From positions 62,001 to 126,000 of the forward strand of contig JANQLV010000050.1 of the NCBI GenBank assembly GCA_028280415.1: a stretch of 64,000 nt of DNA, given 5' to 3'. The stretch's first letter is position 1. Every line of letters starts with the position of its first letter. Positions 15,524 to 37,683 of the stretch are shown here, in pieces. The position numbers and the translations under genes are program-made. The DNA comes from Saprospiraceae bacterium. GTDB lineage: Bacteria > Bacteroidota > Bacteroidia > Chitinophagales > Saprospiraceae. The notes below the pieces were generated by a model. It did not search any database and was not told the DNA's origin. It worked only from the letters and a program-made list of their open reading frames with translations.

Positions 15524-18500
15524 TTACATTTTAACCAACTCTCGTGTAACTGAAAAATCGTCTCCAATAATTCTCAACAAGTATAGACCTTTAGGGAATT
15601 GGCCGACATTCAACTCATAGAGGTATTCTTCAGCGGATTCAATTTGATCTACAGAAAGCCTTTTACCATTAATATCCATTAGTTCAATCTGAGCGCTTCC
15701 GGAAAAATTTCTCAATAAAATATTAGCAGTCCCTGCAACCGGATTAGGATATATGAGTACTTTTTCTGTTTCTAGTTCCGGTTCATCCGTATTGATAATG
15801 ATATCATTCCGTATGAAAAAATCCAGGCTGGTATGTATAATTCCATTGATATCAATCGGTCCGGGTGTACCGGTTCCTTTGACGGTTCCATTGGCATTTC
15901 TGAAAACAGCTGATATCCAATGAACGTGTTGATTATCGGATAATCCATAGTAATCCTGAGGTACAAAAGTAATCTGCCATTTATCTACTTCGCCCGGAAC
16001 CGGGCTCATCTCTCCTACTCCATCATCTTCGCCCCAGTTGCCAACGACATTGTTCCAGGAATTATTCCAGGGGGTAGTTGACTCCACAAAGCTGACTCCA
16101 CTATGCATATAGACTTTATCCGCCCCTATCAACTCTCCATTTCCTTTGCGCGCATTAAATGTAACAGTGATTTCTTCATCTATCAAAAATCCGCTCGGTT
16201 CTATGCTTACGAATGGGCCATCATCTTCGATATTAAAATAGATCGTACTATTGCGAAAGCCCATTCCCTGGTTGATATTATTCTCATCTCTGAAAAACAT
16301 TCCAATTCTAAATGCATCCTCATCAGCTGCCAGACCATAATAATCCGCAGGTGTCAGCGTAATCTCCCAGATATCTTCACTCACCTCTGTCATCTCTCCT
16401 ATCCCATCATCCATAAAAGTTCCAACTACATTTTCCAACTCCGTTCCGGAGGGACTATCCAGTACCAGCCCGGAATGGAAGTACACTTTATTGGCTCCAA
16501 CCAAACCGGCCGTTCCATTGGGGAATGCCTTGGTCGCATCGAAGGTAATCGTGATTTCCTGATTTTTGGTAAATGGAAAAGGATTAATCCGTACCGGGTT
16601 TTCATAAACTTCCACTACGCCTTCCATTCCTTCAGAAAGTCGTTCAGTAGTATAAATATGCCACTGTCCGGCTTTTAGCTCTATTGCTTCGGCTACATTT
16701 GAAACCGTAATTGAATCTCCGGAAAAATAATCATACCAGATGCCGGTTTGAGTAAACTGCGGATCAATATTTTCGGTATCCAAACCAAAGTTTCCGATAA
16801 CTACCAGATCGTTCCCGGGAGTATCATAGACCAATCGTCTGGTGTATCCCGTTTCTTTGTGATTCGTCGCAGCATCGGCCAGAGTTTGTGCTTGGATTTG
16901 ATTTCTAACATCCAGGATTCCCTGGTAAGTACTATAAATATGTCGACGCAGGGGATCTTCATAATACCCCAGGCCATCCAGTCCCCAGGGAAGTGGCTTA
17001 TTTCCGGTACGTCCATTAAAATCAATGTGAATATCATAACCCAACTCATCAAACTGCCAGAGCATCTTAGGTCCGGGGTACAAGAACGTAAAGGCCGCAG
17101 CCATTTTCACTCTTTCGTACATGATCAAGGGGTCTTTTGCATTATAAACACCATTATTAAGCCCTTCGGAAAGTACATGTTCGGCAATTCGTCTCTCATC
17201 ATGACTGTTAAAAAAGGAAACATGGCTTTGTGCATCCATCCCTCCGAATCCTCCGGTATTATTACCTACAGTGATTGGGACATAATCATAGCTCCGGTTA
17301 CGCCACATTTTCATCCCGTAATCTGCTAATTCCTGCTCTTCATCCCAGGGGCCCCAATGCTCCAAAATGATATAAGTTTCGGGGTCCTCCTCCCATATCT
17401 CATCCGTCATTCTTTTCAGAATATCAATACGCGACTGGTCATAATTATCAATGCTTCCTCCTGGTTCATAATTGGTAAATCCTTTAGTAAAATCAAAACG
17501 ATAGCCATCGATATGATACTCCGAAATCCAGAATTTATTTACTCGATCCAAAAATCTTTTAGTGTAATCAGATTCATGATCCCAGTCATAACCCCATTCG
17601 AAGGGACCAACATGATCTTGGTTGAACCAGGGACTATCTTCAGTGGGTGCTCCATTTTCGAAATACAGTTTCACCATCGGATTCTGTCCAAAAGCATGAT
17701 TCATTACCACATCCATTATTACGGCCAGGCCATTCTGGTGTGCTATTTCAATAAATTTTTTCAAATCATTTTTAGGTCCATAGTATTTATCCGGTGCAAA
17801 ATAATAGGCTGGATTATAGCCCCAGGATTCATTACCTTCAAACTCATTGAAGGGCATTAATTCAATGGCATCTACCCCAAGATTTTTGATATAATCGAGG
17901 GTGTCGATCAGATCGGCAAAAGTATGTGTGCCAATAAAGTCTCTGAGCAATAATTCATAAATTACCAGGTGTTCCACATCTGGCCTTTGCCAGTCTGCTT
18001 CGGAAGCGGCCCATTGATATTCCTCTTGCCCGGTTTGTAAAACAGTAGCGTATTGAAACTCCGTACGATCATACACCACAAGATTGGGATAAGTCTCTTC
18101 GCCGATAAAACCATCGTTCCAGGGATCAGCAGCTTTTTCCGCATAGGGATCTCCGATTTTCACATTATCTTCTACCCAATATTGAAAAACATACTCTTGC
18201 ATTGGAGTTAAACCAGTAAGCTCCGCCCAAAGGAATTCTCCGTCGGGTGTGCGCTTCATTTGATGCTCGTTCAGCACTTGCCAATCCGAAAAATCTCCCA
18301 CGACATAAGCATATTCTTTCCCCGGGGCTTCGAGGACAAGTGTAACTTTGGTATCATCATTTTCATCATAATTAATCCCCGGAATAACATCAGCAGGAAG
18401 TTCTGCTACAGGAGAAGGGCTAATAATGATCGCATTAAAGGATTTTATTGCTTCTACTTCTTCTCCAGCTATGGTAGCTGTTACTCTAATGTTTATAACA

Positions 18501-19174
18501 CTGGTTTGGGAAGGGGTATAATTATAAGATATTGAAGTTCCGGAAGAAACCGAAGCTACTTCTGAATAACCACTTCCCTCATCTATCGAAAGGCTCATGG
18601 CGCTAACTTCATCCGAAGCAAAGGCCTCAATAGTCATCGCTTCTCCACTTTCAAGAAAACTCTGATTGGCTATTGGGCTATTAAAGCCAACAAAATTACC
18701 TGCATTCAAATTGATATAGAAATCCAGATTGGGTGTAACGGTACCCCAACTGTAATCGCCGGGAGTGGTCGTACCTTTAATCAATCCATCTGCACTACGA
18801 AAAACACAGGAAATTCGAAATATATTTTCACCATTGGGAACATTAAAATACTCCCGAATTGAAGGATTCAGCTCAATTTCCCACTTATCCGTTTCTCCGG
18901 CGACAAGTGTCATTTCACCAATTCCATCATCTTGTCCCCAATTACCCAGTACATATTGCCAGGCTGTTCCGCTGGGGCTATCGGTTACCACACCGTGATG
19001 AATATAAACTTTTTCTGCCCCGACTAATTCTGCATTTCCCTGAGTCGCATCAAAGGTCAAAGTAACGGACTCATCAGGTCCTGCACTGGTAGGATCAAGA
19101 GATACGATTTGTGCAGTCAGGGAAAAGGAAAGGCATACCAGGGATACCAATAAATAAAATCTACTCATAATCAT
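15524..19174 (-). CDS. T9SS-secreted GH13 alpha-amylase with three repeated N/C-terminal modules
   Basis: A 1216-residue secreted enzyme. Order: signal peptide (1-21); module A (about 22-155); a bacterial Ig-like linker; a CBM48/E-set domain (about 270-350, YVVGDFSDW); the GH13 barrel (about 395-770); two more copies of module A (about 865-975 and 980-1120); and a T9SS type A sorting tail (EKVLIYPNPVAG ... VTRELVKM). Catalytic regions are readable: DVVMNH (488-493), GYRFDF with nucleophile D561, acid/base E605 (IILEHWG), and the NSHD His-Asp pair (658-659). It should cut alpha-1,4-glucans outside the cell. The repeated module (FDATQGNAELVGAEKVYIH) probably binds starch, but this is inferred. 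Confidence 0.93.
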   Translation of the reverse strand: MIMSRFYLLVSLVCLSFSLTAQIVSLDPTSAGPDESVTLTFDATQGNAELVGAEKVYIHHGVVTDSPSGTAWQYVLGNWGQDDGIGEMTLVAGETDKWEIELNPSIREYFNVPNGENIFRISCVFRSADGLIKGTTTPGDYSWGTVTPNLDFYINLNAGNFVGFNSPIANQSFLESGEAMTIEAFASDEVSAMSLSIDEGSGYSEVASVSSGTSISYNYTPSQTSVINIRVTATIAGEEVEAIKSFNAIIISPSPVAELPADVIPGINYDENDDTKVTLVLEAPGKEYAYVVGDFSDWQVLNEHQMKRTPDGEFLWAELTGLTPMQEYVFQYWVEDNVKIGDPYAEKAADPWNDGFIGEETYPNLVVYDRTEFQYATVLQTGQEEYQWAASEADWQRPDVEHLVIYELLLRDFIGTHTFADLIDTLDYIKNLGVDAIELMPFNEFEGNESWGYNPAYYFAPDKYYGPKNDLKKFIEIAHQNGLAVIMDVVMNHAFGQNPMVKLYFENGAPTEDSPWFNQDHVGPFEWGYDWDHESDYTKRFLDRVNKFWISEYHIDGYRFDFTKGFTNYEPGGSIDNYDQSRIDILKRMTDEIWEEDPETYIILEHWGPWDEEQELADYGMKMWRNRSYDYVPITVGNNTGGFGGMDAQSHVSFFNSHDERRIAEHVLSEGLNNGVYNAKDPLIMYERVKMAAAFTFLYPGPKMLWQFDELGYDIHIDFNGRTGNKPLPWGLDGLGYYEDPLRRHIYSTYQGILDVRNQIQAQTLADAATNHKETGYTRRLVYDTPGNDLVVIGNFGLDTENIDPQFTQTGIWYDYFSGDSITVSNVAEAIELKAGQWHIYTTERLSEGMEGVVEVYENPVRINPFPFTKNQEITITFDATKAFPNGTAGLVGANKVYFHSGLVLDSPSGTELENVVGTFMDDGIGEMTEVSEDIWEITLTPADYYGLAADEDAFRIGMFFRDENNINQGMGFRNSTIYFNIEDDGPFVSIEPSGFLIDEEITVTFNARKGNGELIGADKVYMHSGVSFVESTTPWNNSWNNVVGNWGEDDGVGEMSPVPGEVDKWQITFVPQDYYGLSDNQHVHWISAVFRNANGTVKGTGTPGPIDINGIIHTSLDFFIRNDIIINTDEPELETEKVLIYPNPVAGTANILLRNFSGSAQIELMDINGKRLSVDQIESAEEYLYELNVGQFPKGLYLLRIIGDDFSVTRELVKM

Positions 19175-23534: not shown

Positions 23535-24371
23535 TCAGATATTCGTTATGCGTTTGTATAACTGTTGGGTTTCTGGTAATGGACCAATGCCAAATTCTTC
23601 ATCCAATACTTTTTGGCACTGGCGATAAATTTTAATCGCCATCGGACGATTTCCTTTCTCCAGATAAGCTTCCATTTGAATGCGGTAAGCATCTTCCCAG
23701 GCATGATCAATCTGTAATATCTTTTGGGCCAGGCGGATGCTCTCCAGTGGATTTTCTTTTACCAATAATTCACTTAGGCTAATCAAAGCATTCAGGGCCG
23801 CGAGCTGCAAACGTTCTCGTTCTTCAGTGGACCAATCTTCGTAAAGCCGGTTGGGGAGATAGATTCCTTCGTAAAGCTCAATAGCTTCATAATAAGCTTT
23901 GCGGGCAATGGCTGAATTATTAAGCAAGTGTTGATTTGCAATAGCCAGTAACTGATCCATCGCTTCAGTATCGATCCAGATTTCATCCAGTTTGAGTTGA
24001 TAACTCACACCCTGTCGATTGATGAAACGTGCTTCTGAACGACTCTTGCGGCCAGGCTCTAAAACCTTATTGATCCCGTGCATAGCCACCTTGAAATTCT
24101 GTTGACCGGATTTGGTTTCGGCATTGCCCCAGATATAATCGATGATTTGTTCTTTATGCAAGGCGTGGCGATGACGATTGGTAATAAAAAACTGAAATAG
24201 CTGAATAGCTGCATCACGGCCCCAGTCTTTTTGACTGATGGCCGCTCCAGAACGCCAAACCTGAAAACCTCCGAGGGTTTTCACCCGGATTTCCGCATGG
24301 CTTTTTTTGGACAGGATAGACTCGATTCGGGATTCCGGATTAGGCACAGGTTTACTTTTTAAGTTGATCAA
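23535..24371 (-). CDS. BTAD-domain transcriptional regulator (SARP-like)
   Basis: A 278-residue regulator. An N-terminal winged-helix DNA-binding domain (about 28-125; VKTLGGFQVWRSG, WGRDAAIQLFQFFITNRH, LHKEQIIDYIWG) is followed by a bacterial transcriptional activator TPR-like domain (about 130-278; YEGIYLPNRLYEDW, DEEFGIGPLPETQQLYKRI). It lacks the ATPase or sensor modules of larger relatives. Its first 20 bases overlap the end of the phasin-like gene, so the two are almost certainly co-transcribed and translationally coupled. Position suggests control of the adjacent lipid-synthesis genes, but no target is proven. Confidence 0.88.
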   Translation of the reverse strand: MINLKSKPVPNPESRIESILSKKSHAEIRVKTLGGFQVWRSGAAISQKDWGRDAAIQLFQFFITNRHRHALHKEQIIDYIWGNAETKSGQQNFKVAMHGINKVLEPGRKSRSEARFINRQGVSYQLKLDEIWIDTEAMDQLLAIANQHLLNNSAIARKAYYEAIELYEGIYLPNRLYEDWSTEERERLQLAALNALISLSELLVKENPLESIRLAQKILQIDHAWEDAYRIQMEAYLEKGNRPMAIKIYRQCQKVLDEEFGIGPLPETQQLYKRITNI

Positions 24372-24864
24372 CCTTTTCGTTTAATCTGGCAACTTCACCG
24401 GAAAGGGATTCCAGTTTCTCCAGAATTTTTTTGGAGTCGGATTTGGAAGAAGAAAGCCAGGAGTCAACATCGAATTTCTGGCCAATTTCTTCTTTAACCT
24501 GACTAAGCTGATCCTGTATTTGATCCTGTATCTGAGCAACTTGTTTCTTTGGATCTTTGATGGTTTCAATTACCATTTTGGGTGCTTCGGTAGCCATCTT
24601 TTTCCAAAGATCAAAACTCTTGGCCAAAATCCCCTTTTGCTCTTCCGGACTTTTATTTTCCATCGCCTGAATCGTTAGATCCTGCAATTTGCTTTGGATA
24701 AATTTCACCACTTCTTCAAATTCGGAAAAACGCTTTTCATCTCCACCTTGCACATGTCTAATATTACCGCGCCATTGCACTTGAGCTTCACCTTTTTCGC
24801 TTTCAAAGATTTTTTGCGTAAAGCGTATCATAAAGGATGCTGTTTCTTCTTTTCTATTGGACAT
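24352..24864 (-). CDS. Phasin-like coiled-coil protein
   Basis: A 170-residue soluble protein. The N-terminal beta-rich segment (about 8-45; SFMIRFTQKIFESEKGEAQV, WRGNIRHVQGG) is followed by long amphipathic helices (about 45-135). A C-terminal heptad coiled coil (KILEKLESLSGEVARLNEKV) ends the protein. The helix-plus-coil layout resembles phasins that coat polyester or lipid granules. No firm family match, so 'phasin-like' is an inference from layout and from the lipid genes next door. It is the first gene of a two-gene unit with the BTAD regulator, and diverges from the WS/DGAT gene across 313 bases. Confidence 0.7.
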   Translation of the reverse strand: MSNRKEETASFMIRFTQKIFESEKGEAQVQWRGNIRHVQGGDEKRFSEFEEVVKFIQSKLQDLTIQAMENKSPEEQKGILAKSFDLWKKMATEAPKMVIETIKDPKKQVAQIQDQIQDQLSQVKEEIGQKFDVDSWLSSSKSDSKKILEKLESLSGEVARLNEKVDQLKK

Positions 24865-25177
24865 CTTTTATAGATTTATTTTATAAGCCAATATAAAATA
24901 ATGAATTGACTAAAACTAATTTATACAAAAACAGATCACTCGCTTTTCAGAATTCAAATTAGTCTGATCACTCTAAGCAAAGCAGAAAAACAGTTTGTAT
25001 TATTGGGATAAAGAAAGTCTAACCTTTCTAAATAGGTTCTGATCGAAATACTTTTCTCCGGGAAGAGCTGTACAGTTTAAAGCTAAATTAATATATTGAG
25101 TTAGTTTAAAAACAAAAGGCATATTCAAATCATCCTTATCAGGCTCTTAGAACAGAAAGCCTTATCTATAAGGTTCA
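24865..25177. promoter_or_regulatory. Divergent intergenic region with direct repeat GATCACTC
   Basis: This 313-base region separates the phasin-like/BTAD unit from the WS/DGAT gene. The octamer GATCACTC occurs twice in the same orientation, at 24934-24941 and 24966-24973, with a period of 32 bases (about three helical turns). Regulators with a BTAD/SARP domain are known to bind direct repeats, so this may be an operator. No TAnnTTTG box was found close to either start. Confidence 0.35.
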
Positions 25178-27049
25178 ATGCTTTTTATAAAAATTTTACA
25201 AGTCAATAAAATCAGGACACAGGTGCTAGATAAAATTTTTCAACAACTTAAAAAGTCGCCGGATATCAAAGCTATCTCCGGTATGGACGCTACCTTTTTG
25301 TATATAGAAACCCCTACCAGCCCTATGCACATAGGAAGTGTGGCAGTGATAGAAGGCTCATTGGAATTCGAAAAATTTAAAGCAACCATCCAGTCCAGAA
25401 TCCATATGATCCCTAAATTGCGGCAGCGGCTCGTATATGTCCCGATGAGTATTGATTATCCCTATTGGGTAGATGATCCGCATTTTGATATCGACATGCA
25501 CATTCAGCATATTGCGCTGCCCAAGCCCGGCAACTGGAAAACCTTACGCAAGGTTGCTTCCCAAATTTTTAGTGAGCCTCTGGATCAGTCCCGGCCACTT
25601 TGGTCTTTTACCTTTGTCGAAGGCCTGGATGATATTCCACAAGTCCCCAAAGGCTCGGTTGCCGTGATCTCAAAAGTACATCATGTTGCTATTGACGGTG
25701 TAGGGGGCGCAGGCTTATTAAGCCTTATTTTTGATTTTACTCCCGAAGTAAAAGATATTCCCGAACCACGTCCTTTTAAACCCAAACCTTTGCCCAATGA
25801 ACTGGCAATGATCCTTAAAAGTACTATGAGCTTTGTGGAAAAGCCTCTGAAATTTCCCAAACTTATCAGTGAAGCATTAACGGCATCTTTTAAAGCGGGG
25901 GTGCTCACCCGGGTAAAAAAAATCGACTTACCTGCCGCTCCGTTTTCAGCTCCTCCAACACCACTCAACGGAATCATTTCGCCCAAAAGAAAATGGAATA
26001 CCGCCATTATTTCTCTGGAAAGAATTAAAGCTTTGAAGAATATTATGCAGACTACGCTCAATGATGTGATGCTGGCAATCTGCGCCGGAGCATTACGACG
26101 TTATCTGCTGGAAAAAGAAAAGCTTCCGATCAAACCACTGGTGGCCATGGTGCCCATATCGACCAGATCAAAAGAAGAGGACAAAGAAGAAGGTAATAAT
26201 ATTTCTTCGATGCTGGTTCAGTTGGCAACAAACATCGAAGATCCGATCAAACGACTGGAGGCTATCCACGAAAATACAGTTCGCGGAAAATCTTATCAAG
26301 GGGCCATTGGTGCAAAAACATTAGCCAATATGGCGGAGGCCATTCCTTTTGGTGTTGCCAACCAGGCGGCAAGATTGTACTCCCGTTTTCAAATTGCGGA
26401 AATGCATCGCCCGGTTTTCAATGTAACGATTACCAATGTACCCGGCCCGCCTATACCCTTATTCCTCAACGGCCATAAGCTGCTTTCTATCATGGGAATG
26501 GCGCCAATCATTGACGGAATGGGATTAATCATTACAATTTTTAGCTACGATGGTCATGTAACCATCAGTTCAACCTCCGATGCCAATTCTATGCCTGATA
26601 TCGATAGATTTAGCCGTTACATCCGGGAATCAGTTAATGAACTGGAAACAGCCATTTTAAAAATCAAAAACAAAAGGGCAAAGACAAAAAAAGTAGTAAA
26701 AAAAGCAGCTTCTGATGCCTTGTTTACTCATATACGTAAAGCTTTAAAGGTCAATGCTCAGTTTATAAAACCCAATAACGGCCTATTTTTATTTAATGTG
26801 ACTGGTGAAGCTCCTGCAACCTGGAAAATTGATCTGAACAAATCTCCTGGAGTAGTCCGCAAAGGAACAGCCAAAGACCCGGATGTTACTTTCACTATTG
26901 CTGATCAGCATCTGGTGCGCATAGGCGAGGGTAAACTCAATCTTCAAACGGCGTTTATACAGGGGCGTTTAAAAATCGATGGCGATTCGGCAAGAGCCAT
27001 GAAATTAGGCACGATCCTCTCGAAGTTACCCAAGATGGGTGAGCTGTGA
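25178..27049 (+). CDS. Wax ester synthase/diacylglycerol acyltransferase fused to SCP2 domain
   Basis: A 623-residue bifunctional WS/DGAT. The N-terminal half starts with the family opening SGMDATFLYIETP (about 34) and holds the catalytic HHxxxDG motif as HHVAIDG (168-174). The second half has the family's usual NDVMLAICAGALRRYL and NVTITNVPGPPIPLFL segments. It ends with an SCP2 sterol-carrier domain (about 515-623; KIDLNKSPGVVRKGTAKDPD, FIQGRLKIDGD), which is not part of most WS/DGATs. It should transfer acyl-CoA to diacylglycerol or a fatty alcohol. The SCP2 domain may hold or deliver the lipid substrate. The first ATG in frame is used; the family core begins about 33 residues later. It ends 14 bases from the convergent gpsA. 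Confidence 0.93.
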   Translation: MLFIKILQVNKIRTQVLDKIFQQLKKSPDIKAISGMDATFLYIETPTSPMHIGSVAVIEGSLEFEKFKATIQSRIHMIPKLRQRLVYVPMSIDYPYWVDDPHFDIDMHIQHIALPKPGNWKTLRKVASQIFSEPLDQSRPLWSFTFVEGLDDIPQVPKGSVAVISKVHHVAIDGVGGAGLLSLIFDFTPEVKDIPEPRPFKPKPLPNELAMILKSTMSFVEKPLKFPKLISEALTASFKAGVLTRVKKIDLPAAPFSAPPTPLNGIISPKRKWNTAIISLERIKALKNIMQTTLNDVMLAICAGALRRYLLEKEKLPIKPLVAMVPISTRSKEEDKEEGNNISSMLVQLATNIEDPIKRLEAIHENTVRGKSYQGAIGAKTLANMAEAIPFGVANQAARLYSRFQIAEMHRPVFNVTITNVPGPPIPLFLNGHKLLSIMGMAPIIDGMGLIITIFSYDGHVTISSTSDANSMPDIDRFSRYIRESVNELETAILKIKNKRAKTKKVVKKAASDALFTHIRKALKVNAQFIKPNNGLFLFNVTGEAPATWKIDLNKSPGVVRKGTAKDPDVTFTIADQHLVRIGEGKLNLQTAFIQGRLKIDGDSARAMKLGTILSKLPKMGEL

Positions 27050-27063
27050 ATCCTGCGACTTCA

Positions 27064-28065
27064 TTAACCAGGGTCCGCTTCCGATCCGGACTCCTGGCGA
27101 ATTAAACCCCGGAATGCATCTTTTACGGTTGCCCCTTCATTGACTACTTTGTACACTTCAGCGGTTATCGGCATCGGGATATTATATTCTTTAGCCAGTT
27201 CCATTACGACACCGCAGGTTTTTACGCCTTCTGCAACCATCGACATCTCTTCGATGATCTCATTAAGTGTCCTACCTTGCCCTAGCTGAAAACCTACATG
27301 TCGATTACGGCTCAAACCACTGATACAAGTAGCGACTAAATCTCCCATCCCCGTCAAGCCCGCAAAAGTTTCTGGTCTCCCTCCCATAGCTACTCCGAGC
27401 CGGGTCAGTTCTGCAAGTCCGCGGGTAATCACCGCAGCCCGGGTATTGTCACCTGCGCCTGCACCATCTCCCATTCCCGCAGCAATCGCAATGACGTTTT
27501 TTAGCGCCCCTCCCAACTCACAGCCAACCACATCATCATTCGTATATACTCTAAATAATCCGGTAAGAAATACTTTTTGCAAAGCAATAGCAATAGTATC
27601 ATCAACCATAGCAATTACACTGGCCGCAGCCTGACCAGCAAGAATCTCTCTGGCGAGATTCGGCCCGGTAAGTACTCCTGCCGGATGTCCGGGCATTACC
27701 ATTTCAATAATCTCGGTCATTCGCATTTTCGTGCCCTCTTCCAGCCCCTTGGAAAGACTCACGATTGGTACCCATGGGCGGATATAAGGCTTTGCATCTT
27801 CTAATACATAACGAAAACTTTGCGAGGGGACTCCCATAACCACCACGTCAGCATCCACCACAGCTTCCTTGATAGAAGTTGTTGCCCTTAATGATTCCGT
27901 AAGTTTTGCTCCGGGTAAGTACTTTTCATTCCGATGGTATTGATTGATTTCTTTCACTGTCCCAGCATTTCTCGCCCACATTTTGGTAGGAGTATTCTGA
28001 GAAGTAAGGGAAGCCACAGTAGTCCCCCAGGATCCGCCACCGAGTAGGCCAATGCGTAATTTCAT
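27064..28065 (-). CDS. gpsA: NAD(P)-dependent glycerol-3-phosphate dehydrogenase
   Basis: A 333-residue enzyme that reduces dihydroxyacetone phosphate to sn-glycerol-3-phosphate, the entry point to glycerolipids. The Rossmann motif is IGLLGGGSWGTTVASL. Family-typical segments are VVMGVPSQSFRYVL, IVSLSKGLE, GPNLAREIL, GALKNVIAIAAGMGDGAG and LTGMGDLVATC. Length is normal. It lies downstream of the acyltransferase fusion on the same strand, with 72 bases between them that hold an inverted repeat, so the two may be co-transcribed. Confidence 0.97.
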   Translation of the reverse strand: MKLRIGLLGGGSWGTTVASLTSQNTPTKMWARNAGTVKEINQYHRNEKYLPGAKLTESLRATTSIKEAVVDADVVVMGVPSQSFRYVLEDAKPYIRPWVPIVSLSKGLEEGTKMRMTEIIEMVMPGHPAGVLTGPNLAREILAGQAAASVIAMVDDTIAIALQKVFLTGLFRVYTNDDVVGCELGGALKNVIAIAAGMGDGAGAGDNTRAAVITRGLAELTRLGVAMGGRPETFAGLTGMGDLVATCISGLSRNRHVGFQLGQGRTLNEIIEEMSMVAEGVKTCGVVMELAKEYNIPMPITAEVYKVVNEGATVKDAFRGLIRQESGSEADPG

Positions 28066-28090
28066 AGATATCCGCTTTTCAGTATTCGCT

Positions 28091-28119
28091 ATTCGCTATT
28101 CGAATATCGAATAGCGAAT
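28091..28119. repeat. Short palindromic repeat of an ATTCGCTATTCG family
   Basis: Perfect 12-base arms ATTCGCTATTCG (28091-28102) and CGAATAGCGAAT (28108-28119) with loop AATAT, preceded by another copy of the half-unit. It sits between the acyltransferase fusion and gpsA. A related inverted repeat lies at 35356-35394, so this may be a REP-like element; it could also act as a transcription attenuator. Confidence 0.6.
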
Positions 28120-28137
28120 GAGCGAAGTATTATTAAA

Positions 28138-31100
28138 TCACTTCTTGATCTTTATTTTTTGCCCGTCCGGATGTTTTCCATTGACAGTAGTTTTATACTC
28201 TTCCTGTCCAAGTTCTTTTAAAAACAAACCTCTGACTTTTGCAATATGACTATTCAGTTTTTCCTTTTTCCAGCGTCTGGTCGAGACCGGAGGCAAAGCA
28301 ATCACCTCAATGGCTGCTGACCTGAAAACGTTTGTTCCTTTCGGCATTGCATCGTGTGCGTTGCGAATAACTACCGGCACGATCGGGACGCGTGCCTGCA
28401 TCGCGAGATGAAAGGCTCCTTTTTTGAATGTTCCCAGTTTATAATCCTTACTGCGAGTACCTTCCGGAAAAATAATAATAGAAGTCCCGGTTTTGAGTGC
28501 TTCTACCGCTGGTTTCATAGCTTCTATTGCTTTTTCCCGATTTTTACGATCAATAAAAATCACTCCAGCGGCCATCATAAGCTGTCCGATAATCGGAAAG
28601 TTTTTCAGTTCTTTTTTAGCAATACCCGTTGCATCTTTTCGAATCAGTTTTGAAACAATAAAAAGATCGGCACTACTTTGATGATTAAAAATAAAGACCG
28701 CAGGACGCTTCGACCAAAGATGTTCTTTTCCTTTTACGACTAATTCGATTCCAGCTGCGGCAATTACAAAATCCCCTACTGAAGCCATCAGGGAATTGAC
28801 CCCTTCCTGCCAGTCCAGGTTAAATGCACCTTTAGTAATCCCGGATATAACAGCCGGCAGCAAACTGCCCAGAGCCAGGCCCGTCCGTAAAAAACCGGAA
28901 ACGCCCGGACGCCCCTCGTCATTGAAACGGAAGACCGGCCAGTTATTTTTAAAAGCCAGTGCAGATAGTTTAGTGTCCGGATTGACAGGACGGGGATTTC
29001 CTACGATTTCCAGTAAAGGCGCATCGGAAGCACTATCCGTATAGAAATAGCTTTTGGAAAGATCAAGATTATGTTCTTTGCACAATTCCTTAGCGGCATA
29101 AGCTTTCCCTTCTCCCCAACAAGCCGGTTCGACAATATTCCCTGTGAACTTTCCCCGGTTCACTTCCATCCTTGTACACATTACATGGTGGATATTCAGA
29201 TCTCTCGCAATCGGATTTACCTGATATGGTGTCGCTGCAGAAATAATCGCAACAGTATGCCCTTTAGCCAGGTGGGCATTGACCAAGGCTCTTGATTCCG
29301 GATAAATTTCATCCGCCAGATGTTTTTGGTAAACTTCTTCACCAACCTCGATAAAAACATTTTCTTCAACTCCTTTCACACCCTGCGCGCCCACCGCCGC
29401 CAGTCCGGCAAAATTGCCATTTCCCATCGCATATACCAACACTCCGGCAAATTGAGCTACAATTTCACTGGTGGTCATTTTTCCACTGAATAAACGGGTT
29501 TGGAAAAATTCTTTTGCCGAAAAGTTTTTGATAAGGGTACGGTCCAGATCGAAGAAAGCACCGACATGCGAACCAGATTCCCCTTCCATCACTGCTTTGG
29601 TAATTGCTTCAGTCTTTGAGCCGGGTACAATTTCGCGTTCAATTGGCACCGTAGATATATCCGTCACGGGTTTGGCCAATATGATTCCCTGCAAAACCTT
29701 GATACGTTCCGCAATTTCATTTAAACGGTCTAAAAAAGACTGGATTTCTTTTACCTTGGGATTCGATTCCGAAGGAATCAATCCCAGGTTTTGTATCAAA
29801 CGAATGCCATTGATCAAAAAGGGCGCTCGTACAGATTCTACTCGTTGTATTCTTCCTTGCCAATGCATTTCTTCACTCAAAAAAAGGCAATCTTCAATAA
29901 AGGCTTTTTCCTCGAAGGGCCGTCCCGGGCGCCAGTTTTGTAAAGCATAAGCAACTACCCGATAGGCTTCAATATAGGTAGAGAGTACCACCGGAGCAAT
30001 AATAATCTTTTGCTTTTCCAAAAAAGCAAGCTTTTTTGCATTAGTCATCTCGATAATACTCAGCCAGTCAGGAGTCAAAATATCCAGATTCGCTTCTACC
30101 TCATTGGTAAATTCTAATTTCCGGGAATAGAAAAATTCAAATTTAAACAAAGAGCGGAGCGCCATTATCTCCTTCCAGAAAACCTCCTGCCTCAATGCTG
30201 TTTTCACTGAAGAGGTTTTTAGTAATGCCAGTTCGATAAAGGCCCGTTGATACAAATGATGCACTGACATATTCGCATAATAAGTTGCCTCCAGATAATT
30301 CTCAGAATTAAGCACGTATTTTGCATCCAGTGATTCGCCACGTTGCAAGATTATCCTTGCTCTCTGTAATAGGTTAATGGCTTTTTGCACGGTTTCCCCC
30401 ATTGCTTTACCCCGGTCTACCAGAGCATCAGGTTTATATTTTTCAATAAACTGCATTTGATCGACCACACTATTTTCAATCATTCTCTTGTTTAACGAAA
30501 ATTTACTAAGCAGTGCAATACAAATCAGGGAGGTAGTTGTAACCGGAGTAATTTGATTGATCCGATGTACCAATTCTAAAGCGAAGCGGGGCAATTGTCC
30601 GGAATAATTTTTTGTATTATGCCCTTCGGTAATGAGTTCTACAGAGTTATCGGCATTGATCGCTACTGGTGAACCAAAACGAATGGATATCTTGCCAAAA
30701 TTATCATCCATCTTTCTGACATAGTTTAAAAACCATTTCAGACTTTCCGGACTTTTAATTTTCCCTCTACCTTCGAGGGTCATATCTTTTACATCGGGTA
30801 TAAGATCATAAACGATGGAAACCGGCACATACTTTACTTCCTGATGAGAATCCTCTTCCGCTTCACGGATATATTTCAGGATACCAACTTTTGGCCAAAC
30901 CAGTTTTCCGGTACGCGACCTCGTTCCTTCGATAGCCCACATAAAATGTGCTCCATCATTCACTAAAGATGCGATGAAATGCCTGAGTGAAGCTTTATAG
31001 ATCAAATCATCTTTGAAAGATCGTCGAATAAATATCACTCCATTTTGACGGGCTAATTGCCCAAAACCCATAAAATCCATATTGATACCTGCAAAAGTAT

Positions 31101-31440
31101 AAGGAAAGGGTATCCCATGCCTGCCCAGCGTAACGGCGAGGACAAACATATCTAAATAGGTTTTATGAGTCATCACAAAAGCAATAGGATGGCGGCGAGC
31201 GAGCCTGGTCAACTCTTTAATCTCCTGGGGATTGACATCAATGGTTTTCTTGTAAGCTCTTCCAAGAATGTACTGAGATATTTGTAGACCCAGAATATTA
31301 AAAAGTGGCTGGTGCAAAGTTTGCAATTCTTTCAGACAGGCATGGGCTTCCTTATATACCTGATCATAAGGTTCTCCGATTTGCTCGGCAATATCTATCA
31401 GCTTCTTTTGAAATTTCGGATCATTTATAAGGTTTTCCAT
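28138..31440 (-). CDS. Trifunctional-type glycerolipid acyltransferase: GPAT, HAD-IB phosphatase and PlsC in one chain
   Basis: A 1100-residue fusion. Part 1 (about 60-300) is a GPAT of the PlsB/DHAPAT type: H92-x4-D97 (HKTYLD), GVIFIRR, then EGTRSRTGK (171-179). A helical linker (about 310-600) follows. Part 2 (about 625-820) is a HAD-IB phosphatase with D631-L-D633, a Ser at ISAATPYQ, K779 and DSASD (802-806). Part 3 (about 850-1085) is a PlsC: H920-x4-D925 (NHQSSAD), FIDRKNR and FPEGTRS (991-997). It could acylate glycerol-3-phosphate twice and, if the HAD acts on phosphatidate, release diacylglycerol. The HAD substrate is inferred. gpsA lies downstream on the same strand. Confidence 0.92.
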   Translation of the reverse strand: MENLINDPKFQKKLIDIAEQIGEPYDQVYKEAHACLKELQTLHQPLFNILGLQISQYILGRAYKKTIDVNPQEIKELTRLARRHPIAFVMTHKTYLDMFVLAVTLGRHGIPFPYTFAGINMDFMGFGQLARQNGVIFIRRSFKDDLIYKASLRHFIASLVNDGAHFMWAIEGTRSRTGKLVWPKVGILKYIREAEEDSHQEVKYVPVSIVYDLIPDVKDMTLEGRGKIKSPESLKWFLNYVRKMDDNFGKISIRFGSPVAINADNSVELITEGHNTKNYSGQLPRFALELVHRINQITPVTTTSLICIALLSKFSLNKRMIENSVVDQMQFIEKYKPDALVDRGKAMGETVQKAINLLQRARIILQRGESLDAKYVLNSENYLEATYYANMSVHHLYQRAFIELALLKTSSVKTALRQEVFWKEIMALRSLFKFEFFYSRKLEFTNEVEANLDILTPDWLSIIEMTNAKKLAFLEKQKIIIAPVVLSTYIEAYRVVAYALQNWRPGRPFEEKAFIEDCLFLSEEMHWQGRIQRVESVRAPFLINGIRLIQNLGLIPSESNPKVKEIQSFLDRLNEIAERIKVLQGIILAKPVTDISTVPIEREIVPGSKTEAITKAVMEGESGSHVGAFFDLDRTLIKNFSAKEFFQTRLFSGKMTTSEIVAQFAGVLVYAMGNGNFAGLAAVGAQGVKGVEENVFIEVGEEVYQKHLADEIYPESRALVNAHLAKGHTVAIISAATPYQVNPIARDLNIHHVMCTRMEVNRGKFTGNIVEPACWGEGKAYAAKELCKEHNLDLSKSYFYTDSASDAPLLEIVGNPRPVNPDTKLSALAFKNNWPVFRFNDEGRPGVSGFLRTGLALGSLLPAVISGITKGAFNLDWQEGVNSLMASVGDFVIAAAGIELVVKGKEHLWSKRPAVFIFNHQSSADLFIVSKLIRKDATGIAKKELKNFPIIGQLMMAAGVIFIDRKNREKAIEAMKPAVEALKTGTSIIIFPEGTRSKDYKLGTFKKGAFHLAMQARVPIVPVVIRNAHDAMPKGTNVFRSAAIEVIALPPVSTRRWKKEKLNSHIAKVRGLFLKELGQEEYKTTVNGKHPDGQKIKIKK

Positions 31441-31820
31441 ATATGCTGCTTCCTATATGAAGATACTATTGAGGATTATCTAAAGATAGACAAAATATGA
31501 AAATTGAACCTAAAGCGCTGCTCTGGAGTCCGTTTTTTCCAAACAGATTTTATAATTTAATTAACAGTCTCTCCATTTGTTGCCTAAATAACTGTTTTTC
31601 AGCCTTCTACAGGCTATGAATACCTCTTCAAGAAGATTATTAAACTCTTTTTGTTGTAAAAAACTAAACCTGTCCTTCTTTTTGACGTTCTAATTATCCA
31701 ATACCAATTTTAAAAAAAGCAAATTATATTTTTTAAAATGTAAAAAAGAAATAACTTAGTATCTTCAAGTGCCCATAAAACCTAATAATGATCTAAACTT
31801 AAAGAACAGAATCTTTAATC
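31441..31820. other. Divergent intergenic region, nothing recognised
   Basis: 380 bases between the acyltransferase fusion and the alpha/beta hydrolase. Strongly AT-rich with A/T runs near 31700-31750. I see no ORF, clear promoter consensus or strong repeat; it must contain both promoters. Confidence 0.5.
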
Positions 31821-32603
31821 ATGGGGAAAACAGAGGAAGAAAATATAGTAGCGCGACCATCATTATTTTGGTTGTTGACGGAAGGAGGAAGAGCCATTAC
31901 CGAGTTGGGTATGTCAATTCCTTATCGAAAGTTTTTTGCGCGTAAAGATCAGGGAGATGGCCATCCGGTGATGACATTACCGGGTTTTATGGCTTCGGAA
32001 TCCTCTACCTCTCCTATAAGAAATTATATTGATCAACTAGGCTATACGCCTTATACCTGGAACTTGGGCCGCAATACTGCCAAAGTCAAGTTTTTAAAAT
32101 TACTCGTTCACAGAATAGAGGAAATTTACGAAATACACGAAGAACCTGTAAGTCTGATTGGTTGGAGTTTAGGAGGTGTTTTTGCCCGGCAAATCGCTAA
32201 AGCAAAACCCGGAATGGTTCGACAAGTTATCACCATGGGCTCCCCTTTTCGGGGTATTCATCAGCCCAATAATGTAGCCTGGGTTTACAATCTGGTTTCT
32301 GGTGGCAAGCGCATTAAAGATTTAGACCCTATCCTCTTTGAAAATATTCCACTCCCCGCACCGGTTCCCACTACTGCTATTTTTACGAAAGAAGATGGCA
32401 TAGTCCCCTGGGAACTGTGCATGGAAGAAGAAGAGACAGAGATTCATCAAAATATTCAGGTAAGAGGCAGTCATCTCGGTTTAGGTGTCAATCCTACGGT
32501 TTTTGATATCATTGCCGATCGCCTTTTGTATTCGGAGGAAGACTGGGAACATTTCCGACCGAGAAATATCGTAAAAGATCTTCTTTTTTACCCTTCTTTG
32601 TAG
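31821..32603 (+). CDS. Lipase-like alpha/beta hydrolase
   Basis: A 260-residue cytoplasmic protein with a lipase/acyltransferase-type alpha/beta hydrolase fold. PVMTLPGFMAS carries the oxyanion-hole region. The nucleophile elbow is GWSLGG (Ser about 116). The acid is in TKEDGIVPWE (about 191) and the His in RGSHLGLGVNP (about 215). The elbow and the 'GSPFRG' segment (TMGSPFRGIHQP) resemble triacylglycerol lipase-like and LCAT-like proteins. No signal peptide, so it would act on intracellular lipid. It lies next to the lipid-synthesis genes and may mobilise stored lipid or act as an acyltransferase; this is by context only. Confidence 0.85.
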   Translation: MGKTEEENIVARPSLFWLLTEGGRAITELGMSIPYRKFFARKDQGDGHPVMTLPGFMASESSTSPIRNYIDQLGYTPYTWNLGRNTAKVKFLKLLVHRIEEIYEIHEEPVSLIGWSLGGVFARQIAKAKPGMVRQVITMGSPFRGIHQPNNVAWVYNLVSGGKRIKDLDPILFENIPLPAPVPTTAIFTKEDGIVPWELCMEEEETEIHQNIQVRGSHLGLGVNPTVFDIIADRLLYSEEDWEHFRPRNIVKDLLFYPSL

Positions 32604-35479: not shown

Positions 35480-36517
35480 ATGGATCTCTACATTGATAAA
35501 ATCGTCATCCACGAACTGGAAAAGCAAGCCGACTCCGGTGATGTTCAAGTGTTCCTTTCAGATCATCTGATCCCGGTCAATAATCAGTCTGAAACGCTGA
35601 TTCACACGCTCAATGATACTTTTGTTTCCAAGAGTGATTTATTACATGGCTCACTGAGTTCGCCCGAAGATGCGCTCTTCCCGGGTTACTTGCAGAATTT
35701 AGCAGAAAACGAATTTACCGAGGAAGCCTTCCTCTCGTTTTCACAGGATACGATGCGCGCCTTACAGGATATTTTGCAAGGGGTAATCGGAGCTAAAGGG
35801 GGGTATCTGGTTTTTTCAGAATATGAACATTTTGAAACGAAAATGCTCGGAATTTTTCTGGTCCGGGACAAAGAAGGTATTTTCTTCAAAAGAAATAAGA
35901 AAGGACAAACATTTGAACTGCATACCATCTTACACCTGGATACAGATCGCCTGGCAATGGCTTGTCGGATCACTTTAGATAAATTTCAAAAAAACAGCGG
36001 CCGCTTCGTCGATCTGATTAAGCATGCTAAAAGCCAGAAAGAGATTTCCGAATATTTTATCAACTGGATCGGTTTGGACGAGCCACAAAGTAGTAAAGCG
36101 ATTACACAAACCTTTATGAATGTACTCGATAAACTTCCGCTTCCAATTGATGAGGACACAGGTCAACCAATGGAAGAGGAACAGTTTCACCATCAAGTCA
36201 TGGCCTATGCCGTGCAAAGTCCACAAAAAACAGTTGAGTTAGAGAAATTCGATCGACATTTCTACGGTGAAGAGCCTATCATGCAAAACTATCTCAAAGA
36301 AAATCACATCGAACTGGATGATGAGTTTCGAGTGGATAAAGGTACGATGAAAAAGCATTATAATTATCGAGCCTCTGCCGAAGGTATTTCTGTTAGTTTT
36401 TCCAAAAATGATTATGCAAGCGGTAAAGTGAGCATCAAAGGAGATAATCTGGTAATTGACTGTCCTGAATTGGTAGAAAAACTGATGGACATGCTCGAAG
36501 ATGACGGTACCTGGTAA
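35480..36517 (+). CDS. 37-kDa nucleoid-associated protein (NA37/YejK-like)
   Basis: A 345-residue cytoplasmic protein of the NdpA/YejK family. Readable family marks include MDLYIDKIVIHELEKQ at the start, ILQGVIGAKGGYLVFSEYE, LGIFLVRDKEGIFFKRN and LHLDTDRLAMACRITL (about 155-170). The C-terminal half has FINWIGLDEPQSSKAITQ and a final beta-rich YNYRASAEGISVSFSKND. YejK binds the nucleoid in E. coli; its exact action is not known. The stop lies 5 bases before the TIR-protein start, so the two form one transcription unit. Confidence 0.9.
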   Translation: MDLYIDKIVIHELEKQADSGDVQVFLSDHLIPVNNQSETLIHTLNDTFVSKSDLLHGSLSSPEDALFPGYLQNLAENEFTEEAFLSFSQDTMRALQDILQGVIGAKGGYLVFSEYEHFETKMLGIFLVRDKEGIFFKRNKKGQTFELHTILHLDTDRLAMACRITLDKFQKNSGRFVDLIKHAKSQKEISEYFINWIGLDEPQSSKAITQTFMNVLDKLPLPIDEDTGQPMEEEQFHHQVMAYAVQSPQKTVELEKFDRHFYGEEPIMQNYLKENHIELDDEFRVDKGTMKKHYNYRASAEGISVSFSKNDYASGKVSIKGDNLVIDCPELVEKLMDMLEDDGTW

Positions 36518-36522
36518 GTTTT

Positions 36523-37683
36523 ATGATGGATGCAATAGATATTTTCATTGCCTATTCCCAACAGGACAGGGATTTAATGGAGCAATTCAAAAAACAGCTT
36601 TCAGCCGCCGAGCGGATCGGTCTTGTTGATAGTTGGCACGATGGTGAAATAGAGGTCGGTACAGATCGGGAGCTGGCTGCAAAAAAAGCCATGGAAAAAG
36701 CAGAGATTGTAGTGCTTTTACTCAGCGCCAATTTTTTTGCCTCCGAATATTTATACGAAAAAGAAATGACTCAGGCGCTTTCTTTGGCAGAAGCGGGCAA
36801 AGCTACGCTTATTCCCGTCCTGTTAAAAGAGTGTACCTGGCAACTGAGTCCGATTGCCAAACTAAAAATACTCCCCGAGAATGCCATTCCCATCACCAAT
36901 GATTACTGGAAAACTACTGACCGGGCCTTCAAACAGGTAGTCGATCAAATCATTCACATCAGTAATAAAATTCGCAAAGCGCAAGGCAGTCCGGAACTTC
37001 CTTATAAGCCTGCCAGGCAGGAGGATAAATCCCGTTCTCCCCTTCAGGAAACGGCTACTGCAACCAGCCCTGCTGAAAAAACAGATACTTCAAAAACACC
37101 GCTCTGGAAAGTCGCTCTATACGCATTTTTGGGTTTGGGAGCTTTTGCATTGGTATCTCTTCTCATTAATCTATTTTTTCAGCAGCCGGACAAAAAAGAT
37201 ACTGCCGCTCAAACAGAAGCCAGAACAGCAGAGGAAATGAGTCAAAAAGAGGAAGCCAAGCAGACCGCTACTGCTCCATTTCCAAGCATTAAAATTGGTC
37301 AACTGGAATGGTCCGCACAAAATATTGGATCGGAAGCAAAGGAATTCTGGTGTCCGCAAGGACTAGCAGAAAATTGCACTACTCAGGGGAAATTATACAA
37401 TTATAAAACTGCTAAGAATATTTGCCCGGATGGCTGGCGTTTGGCCACTTCTGATGACTGGTTGTCTCTCGATGCCGAAGCTATTAAAAGGCTCCATCTA
37501 ACCCGTAGCGGCTTCTCTTACCGGGGAACCTATATGTTTTACGAACAAAAGGGCTTTTATCACACAGGGGAATACTCCGGCGGGGATGAAGTCTGGGTAA
37601 TTGAATATAGTGGTAATGAAAAAGCTCTTTATAAAAACAGACGTTATTCTTTTGCCGGCATGTCCTGTCGCTGCGTCCGCTAA
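36523..37683 (+). CDS. TIR-transmembrane-FISUMP protein
   Basis: A 386-residue protein of three parts. A TIR domain (about 3-145; IDIFIAYSQQDRDLMEQF, VVLLLSANFFASEYLYEKEM) carries Glu81 at the position expected for the NAD-hydrolysing residue. A linker and one membrane helix (about 194-219; LWKVALYAFLGLGAFALVSL) follow. The extracytoplasmic C-terminus (about 255-386) is a FISUMP/major-paralogous domain (IGQLEWSAQNIG, NICPDGWRLATSDDW, AGMSCRCVR). The likely layout is sensor outside, TIR effector inside. Two Met codons open the gene (36523, 36526). Possible defence or cell-death protein; NADase activity is inferred, not shown. Confidence 0.88.
   Translation: MMDAIDIFIAYSQQDRDLMEQFKKQLSAAERIGLVDSWHDGEIEVGTDRELAAKKAMEKAEIVVLLLSANFFASEYLYEKEMTQALSLAEAGKATLIPVLLKECTWQLSPIAKLKILPENAIPITNDYWKTTDRAFKQVVDQIIHISNKIRKAQGSPELPYKPARQEDKSRSPLQETATATSPAEKTDTSKTPLWKVALYAFLGLGAFALVSLLINLFFQQPDKKDTAAQTEARTAEEMSQKEEAKQTATAPFPSIKIGQLEWSAQNIGSEAKEFWCPQGLAENCTTQGKLYNYKTAKNICPDGWRLATSDDWLSLDAEAIKRLHLTRSGFSYRGTYMFYEQKGFYHTGEYSGGDEVWVIEYSGNEKALYKNRRYSFAGMSCRCVR

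Follow-up and report, generated by a model that had tools for sequence, protein, structure and literature searches.

A probable neutral-lipid storage locus with coat-like proteins and a BTAD-type regulator in a Saprospiraceae bacterium

Homologs of the wax ester synthase/diacylglycerol acyltransferase (WS/DGAT) are reported from 3% of Bacteroidota genomes, and the Bacteroidota proteins measure 613 +/- 15 amino acids (aa), harbor an SCP2 domain and have a 1-acyl-glycerol-3-phosphate acyltransferase (AGPAT)/hydrolase as neighbor (PMC10351704). In rhodococci and mycobacteria an atf9-plsB-plsC(HAD) operon is conserved, and the HAD part of the actinobacterial homologs has been proposed, as an inference, to be a phosphatidate phosphatase (PMC4850399). 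Moreover, Rhodococcus jostii encodes the droplet protein MLDS and the regulator MLDSR in one operon, its droplets being linked to DNA (PMC5504291), and SARP regulators are described as having sites close to the -35 region that consist of directly repeated heptamers, the classical unit being 11 bp (PMC10972967). We describe a window of 64,000 nucleotides from a Saprospiraceae bacterium (GCA_028280415.1, contig JANQLV010000050.1, forward strand, positions 62,001-126,000), in which a WS/DGAT gene lies together with genes for glycerolipid acylation, a phasin-like protein (PHA), a BTAD regulator and a lipase-like hydrolase (Table 1). Judged from its sequence, this is probably a neutral-lipid storage locus, with triacylglycerol as the most likely product and a droplet-coat program of its own.

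The locus shares with the published Bacteroidota proteins the phylum, a WS/DGAT of about 613 aa with a C-terminal SCP2 domain and an acyltransferase/hydrolase neighbor, and Lacinutrix is present in both data sets, whereas the glycerol-3-phosphate acyltransferase (GPAT) part, gpsA, the Bacteroidota coat-like proteins, BTAD, an ArsA ATPase and a putative operator, all present here, are not mentioned in the excerpts of that paper (PMC10351704). The first-pass annotation had stated that storage lipid made by WS/DGAT is not widely described for this phylum, which is partly right, since SCP2-fused WS/DGATs were already published (PMC10351704). As in the actinobacterial Kennedy operon, WS/DGAT, GPAT, AGPAT and HAD are encoded together; however, that operon type has separate plsB and plsC-HAD genes running in the same direction as WS/DGAT, whereas here a single GPAT-HAD-PlsC open reading frame (ORF) lies on the strand opposite to WS/DGAT, and the window locus has the SCP2 domain on WS/DGAT and an added gpsA, as well as coat genes and BTAD, on which the excerpts of that paper are silent (PMC4850399). 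In the excerpts of the open-licence literature searched, nothing was found on the coat families, on the ArsA gene, on the operator or on the triple fusion as a unit, and the excerpt of PMC7572474 holds nothing on the window locus.

Table 1. Features of the locus (window positions, except for the last row, which lies beyond the window end)
Feature	Position	Strand	Remarks
BTAD (SARP-type) transcriptional regulator	23535-24371	-	278 aa from TTG start; PF03704
PHA, phasin-like protein	24352-24864	-	170 aa; conserved N-terminal block and C-terminal coiled coil
Divergent promoter region, PHA-BTAD / WS/DGAT	24865-25177		No TGTAAC direct repeat here; present in several relatives
WS/DGAT fused to SCP2	25178-27049	+	623 aa; TIGR02946 and PF02036
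gpsA, glycerol-3-phosphate dehydrogenase	27064-28065	-	NF009098; second of two genome copies
GPAT-HAD-PlsC fusion	28138-31440	-	1100 aa; upstream of gpsA, same strand
LIP, lipase-like alpha/beta hydrolase	31821-32603	+	260 aa
Second cluster	L152:4858-8478 (= C66:130858-134478)	one co-directional run	PHAS2, PHAS100, basic 126-aa protein (P126), ArsA/Get3 ATPase, second hydrolase

The host genome comprises 7.10 Mb in 81 contigs, with the window at C66:62001-126000, and no RNA families or tRNAs were detected in the window. The ORF listing and curated profile scores confirmed all six genes of the first-pass annotation at the positions of Table 1, in the families it had named; the overlap of 20 bases between PHA and BTAD depends on the TTG start call. 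M. tuberculosis has a similar set, plsB2-plsC(HAD)-Rv2484c(DGAT)-lipQ (Rv2482c-Rv2485c), as that annotation pointed out. The WS/DGAT scores 452.7 bits with TIGR02946 (cut-off 309.95) and its C-terminus 67 bits with the SCP2 model PF02036 (cut-off 21.3). HHxxxDG, the WS/DGAT motif, spans H168-G174, and H168, H169, D173 and G174 are invariant in an alignment of 20 rows including the window protein. This is the single WS/DGAT match of the host genome, and its nearest named WS/DGAT relatives, at 80% identity and also in a quick tree, are those of Saprospiraceae metagenome-assembled genomes (MAGs). A plasmid location of WS/DGAT genes was considered and dropped: there were 42 plasmid records, but not one matched over 80% of the query, and the best identity was 36%. 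A transfer reading for the Chloroflexi and Myxococcales WS/DGATs was set aside, the quick tree placing both outside the Bacteroidota rows; the Chloroflexi assignments are taken from MAG titles. The WS/DGAT gene of one Chloroflexi MAG adjoins the gene of a 1105-aa protein (L127:3130-6447), part of which is BTAD-like.

The fusion consists of a GPAT part at about residues 1-585 (GPAT_C PF19277, 182.5 bits, cut-off 25), a HAD-IB part at 628-838 (TIGR01490, 167.8 bits, cut-off 98.3) and a PlsC part at 897-1080 (AGP_acyltrn TIGR00530, 150.3 bits, cut-off 102.95). In a 20-row alignment including the window protein, H92/D97 of the GPAT HX4D motif, D631/D633, S734, K779, D802 and D806 of HAD and H920/D925 of PlsC are invariant, as are S116, D192 and H218 of the hydrolase in a 17-row alignment that also includes the window; these are expected motif residues, presumed to be catalytic. 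Stop codons reported inside some GPAT relatives were dismissed for five cases (G017, G032, G070, G109 and G118), which read as open ORFs of 1078-1101 aa. GpsA scores 519.9 bits with NF009098 (cut-off 436), and the other gpsA copy of the host genome is 35% identical to it. All steps from dihydroxyacetone phosphate to triacylglycerol are encoded, as had been proposed, provided that the HAD domain is a phosphatidate phosphatase. The family name of WS/DGAT covers both of its activities, and the main product could therefore be a wax ester or a mixture rather than triacylglycerol, but the conserved neighbors are glycerolipid enzymes, namely the GPAT-HAD-PlsC fusion and the second gpsA, and we regard a wax ester or a mixture as unlikely.

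The distribution of these genes was followed in 120 Saprospiraceae genomes, the host included. WS/DGAT is above cut-off in 35 of them, and in a 36th (G106) it is split over two contig ends. Strong matches to the GPAT fusion (>130 bits, the next best score being 82.6 bits) occur in 33 genomes, 31 of which are among these 36, the exceptions being G010 and G068; the WS/DGAT genomes without the fusion (G033, G051, G072, G074 and G102) have WS/DGATs of 471-488 aa, too short for the fused-SCP2 form. Hydrolase matches are present in 38/120 genomes, including 35 of the 36 with WS/DGAT. PHA is found in 25/120, all 25 with a WS/DGAT match (Fisher p 1.4e-17, uncorrected for kinship), and PHAS100, a second coat-like family described below, in 26/120, the same 25 plus G068. 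The pattern extends to a sample of 395 Bacteroidota genomes, where WS/DGAT is found in 22 (17 above cut-off) and PHA in six, all among those 22 (hypergeometric p 1.5e-8). Two of the six PHA matches (G221 and G240) are weak: that of G240 is a true Pfam phasin, with a score of 100 bits, and its counterpart in G221 shares 74% identity with it.

These counts also bear on an alternative in which the locus is a membrane-glycerolipid route, the WS/DGAT having some other acyl-transfer role and no storage droplet being formed. No PlsY match was found in the host genome, so that the GPAT domain could serve phospholipids; however, a Bacteroides ihuae control gave no PlsY match either, and the absence in the host genome is therefore not special. 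Moreover, the second gpsA and a 575-aa acyltransferase-domain protein on C25 could cover housekeeping, 87/120 family genomes have no strong fusion match, indicating that the family does not need the fusion, and coat-like genes accompany WS/DGAT. Taken with these points, a membrane route appears very unlikely. PF01553 has ten domain matches in the host genome, two within the fusion and one in the 575-aa protein (C25:72394), which is a candidate maker of membrane lysophosphatidate.

The conserved neighborhood, which the first-pass annotation had proposed to search for in relatives, was examined in the best 80 named WS/DGAT loci of 437 confirmed candidates (1,287,919 bases), and 64 of the 80 keep at least one partner. 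GPAT is present in 47 loci, the hydrolase, PHA and BTAD in 45 each and gpsA in 19, counts that are limited to the DNA retrieved per locus, several loci being short; among the 30 loci that reach 21.7 kb or more, GPAT is present in 24, the hydrolase in 22 and PHA in 21. PHA and BTAD are adjacent and co-directional in 44/80 loci, with BTAD after PHA; in 13 of these the two genes overlap, and the median gap is 6 bases. The arrangement PHA-BTAD-PHAS2-PHAS100-LIP-WSD (WSD being the WS/DGAT gene), facing GPAT, is frequent. The neighborhood persists through rearrangement in Saprospiraceae, in a Cytophagia MAG (L129) and in Flavobacteriaceae, where L145, L146, L150 and L151 harbor PHA, BTAD, PHAS2, PHAS100, WS/DGAT, the hydrolase, GPAT and gpsA in differing orders; L145 is from the record of a named strain, Lacinutrix jangbogonensis PAMC 27137. 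Given this conservation in relatives, the grouping of the genes is not due to chance, and the refuting outcome that the first-pass annotation had named, loss of the neighborhood in relatives, did not occur.

In other families of the phylum, where the neighbors of 15 loci were inspected and Pfam was run on chosen neighbors only, five loci (L173, L176, L177, L179 and L185) showed a related arrangement. A Pfam phasin (64-83 bits) lies beside WS/DGAT in L173, L176, L179 and L185, and these loci also have a small SCP2-like gene, which scores 23.2 bits in L173, above the cut-off, and 18.5 bits in L179, below it. In L177, an ArsA gene overlaps the start of WS/DGAT and an SCP2-like gene is also adjoining; for the small proteins of L176, L177 and L185, the SCP2 likeness is a visual judgment. 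These separate genes look as if the fused SCP2 domain of the window were unfused there.

In relatives, a coiled-coil family encoded between the BTAD and hydrolase genes led to the identification of PHAS100 and PHAS2. PHAS100 proteins are about 90-200 aa long, and PHAS2 proteins, mostly of 175-320 aa, add to the PHAS100 core a lysine/alanine-rich linker and, in most cases, a helix-hairpin-helix end. This end was not accepted as proof of DNA binding, which is left as a possibility: among solved structures, the PHAS2 C-terminus (for example L113:7756-8514) matches chains of a complex I subunit and of reaction-centre protein O best, with DNA polymerase beta ranking below both. Phasins beside WS/DGAT in some phylum relatives and the weak phasin similarity of PHA could point to polyhydroxyalkanoate granules as the structures coated. 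However, PhaC_N, which occurs in 12/120 family genomes, has no match in the host genome, and 24 of the 25 PHA-bearing genomes are without it, G101 having a partial match of 28.5 bits; on this distribution we rejected polyhydroxyalkanoate granules, which appear extremely improbable. The co-occurrence of PHA with WS/DGAT and the lack of a polyhydroxyalkanoate synthase match in the host genome instead support the earlier proposal that the locus has its own granule protein.

The host genome carries its own PHAS2 and PHAS100 genes in a second cluster, 4.9-8.5 kb past the window end (Table 1). The ATPase of this cluster scores 325.2 bits with PF02374 (cut-off 24.3), and its nearest solved chains are ArsA/Get3. 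As a constant member of the cassette ArsA was ruled out: it is near the cassette in 5/120 loci only, two of them on the same contig, and is treated as an accessory part for that reason. The cluster also has a direct repeat at L152:8533-8549.

This repeat was seen by aligning the intergenic regions between PHA and WSD of relatives, where it reads GTTACA-N5-GTTACA, equivalent to TGTAAC-N5-TGTAAC towards the coat genes, a direct repeat of 17 bp with an 11-bp period. With at most one mismatch it has 74 matches in the 80 loci, 67 of which lie no more than 400 bp upstream of one of the cassette genes, whereas 25 permuted hexamers used as control gave 1-16 matches, 0-5 of them upstream of cassette genes. 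Among the coat genes it precedes PHAS2 in 32/34, PHAS100 in 10/42 and PHA in 10/44 cases, divergent genes sharing sites in these per-gene counts. A script found a coding-strand site before the first coat gene in 35 of the 37 loci with enough upstream DNA; in the other two the site precedes a later ATG by about 75 bp, and the ORF start there was therefore called too early. In 36 of 50 exact sites, the second half is followed by TTTG at an offset of exactly 14 bp (random background at offsets 13/14, 1.6%); the Bacteroidota -7 element is TAnnTTTG. The host genome has one exact site in the 1,594,155 bases scanned (22%), 71 bp before the PHAS2 start and with TTTG at 13.

The candidate regulator scores 57.9 bits with the BTAD model PF03704 (cut-off 22.1), 15.2 bits with Trans_reg_C, below the cut-off of 26.2, and weakly with an AfsR model (E 1.7e-7, below the model cut-off). 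SARP regulators carry an OmpR-type winged-helix DNA-binding domain. The repeat may be real and yet be the site of another factor, or a promoter element, with BTAD acting elsewhere: it was not found before the BTAD gene in any of 45 cases and is rare before enzyme genes (WS/DGAT 8/77, gpsA 1/18, GPAT 0/42, LIP 0/49). However, compared with the 35 of 37 testable coat loci, only one of the 29 loci without BTAD, PHA or PHAS genes has a match, at one mismatch; in L167, from another family, the site lies between BTAD and PHA; and direct repeats that have an 11-bp period and cover the -35 region are described as SARP sites (PMC10972967). We consider another factor rather improbable, and BTAD control of the coat genes the better explanation. 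Because the repeat precedes coat genes and rarely enzyme genes, the BTAD protein seems to act on the coat in the first place and less on the enzymes, rather than to govern the locus as a whole. The earlier proposal that the locus has its own regulator is supported to this extent, but in the host genome the likely operator stands before coat genes that lie outside the window, and it does not precede the WS/DGAT or GPAT genes of the window. Like Streptomyces SARPs, the system combines a BTAD domain with direct repeats of 11-bp period near promoters, as a predicted site; those SARPs govern secondary metabolism, whereas the repeat here precedes Bacteroidota coat genes with a TTTG-type element (PMC10972967). 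As in MLDS/MLDSR, a droplet-type protein is encoded with its own regulator, a likeness that is functional only, since MLDSR binds a 16-bp palindrome and MLDS an apolipoprotein motif, in contrast to the BTAD protein and the 11-bp-period direct repeat found here (PMC5504291).

For the biochemical steps, the product, the droplet location and DNA binding, we infer the following scheme. GpsA would supply glycerol-3-phosphate, and two acylations, by the GPAT and PlsC domains of the 1100-aa protein, would turn it into phosphatidate. The HAD domain, which lies between these two, would probably strip the phosphate, and the WS/DGAT domain would attach the third acyl chain to give triacylglycerol, the fused SCP2 domain probably retaining lipid or handing it on. 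Mobilization of the store, with release of fatty acids, is probably the task of the alpha/beta hydrolases. PHA, PHAS2 and PHAS100 are the probable droplet coat, and the ArsA/Get3 ATPase perhaps delivers them. BTAD, whose gene accompanies that of PHA, is the probable activator of the coat genes and would act through TGTAAC-N5-TGTAAC, which would replace the -33 element. A more elaborate version is tentative and rather doubtful: BTAD would act as a SARP-type switch on a PHAS2-PHAS100-P126-ArsA/Get3-hydrolase operon, PHA would sense droplets and restrain or free BTAD in the manner of MLDSR, PHAS2 would tether droplets to the nucleoid by its lysine-rich linker and helix-hairpin-helix, and the Get3-like ATPase would deliver the coat.

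Several findings weigh against a storage locus with its own coat program. The HAD domain is a putative phosphatidate phosphatase. PHA reaches 13.5 bits with Pfam Phasin PF05597 (cut-off 28.8, E 0.076), and its profile resemblance to phasins spans 38 coiled-coil columns; as this score is below the gathering cut-off we file it as phasin-like only, the label of the first-pass annotation being borne out by a weak Phasin similarity but weak by sequence alone. The PHAS100 profile showed no similarity to phasins, which rules it out as a Pfam Phasin member. A genome of the same genus (G016) is without WS/DGAT, hydrolase, PHA and PHAS100, and 16 of the 80 loci are without any partner, L109, L114, L123 and L140 despite long flanks. 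The BTAD profile matched TPR chains only in PDB, and no SARP structure. Finally, to the scarcity of the repeat before enzyme genes and its absence before BTAD must be added the PHA/WSD promoter of the window itself, which has no repeat at up to two mismatches.

Other features of the window were noted. A TIR-domain protein with a Fib_succ_major domain is encoded at 36523-37683, just after the gene of a 37-kDa nucleoid-associated protein (35480-36517), and an alpha-amylase-like protein that carries a Por secretion tail at 15524-19174.

The analysis turns a list of neighboring genes into a testable system. Coat-like proteins can now be named for neutral-lipid storage in Bacteroidota, for which the published excerpts gave the enzyme and one neighbor. 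The GPAT-HAD-PlsC fusion makes the open phosphatidate phosphatase step assayable in one protein, and the repeat adds a short site on DNA, for which there is a candidate regulator, in bacteria other than actinobacteria. If the Get3-like ATPase does deliver the coat, this would be a bacterial parallel to tail-anchor targeting.

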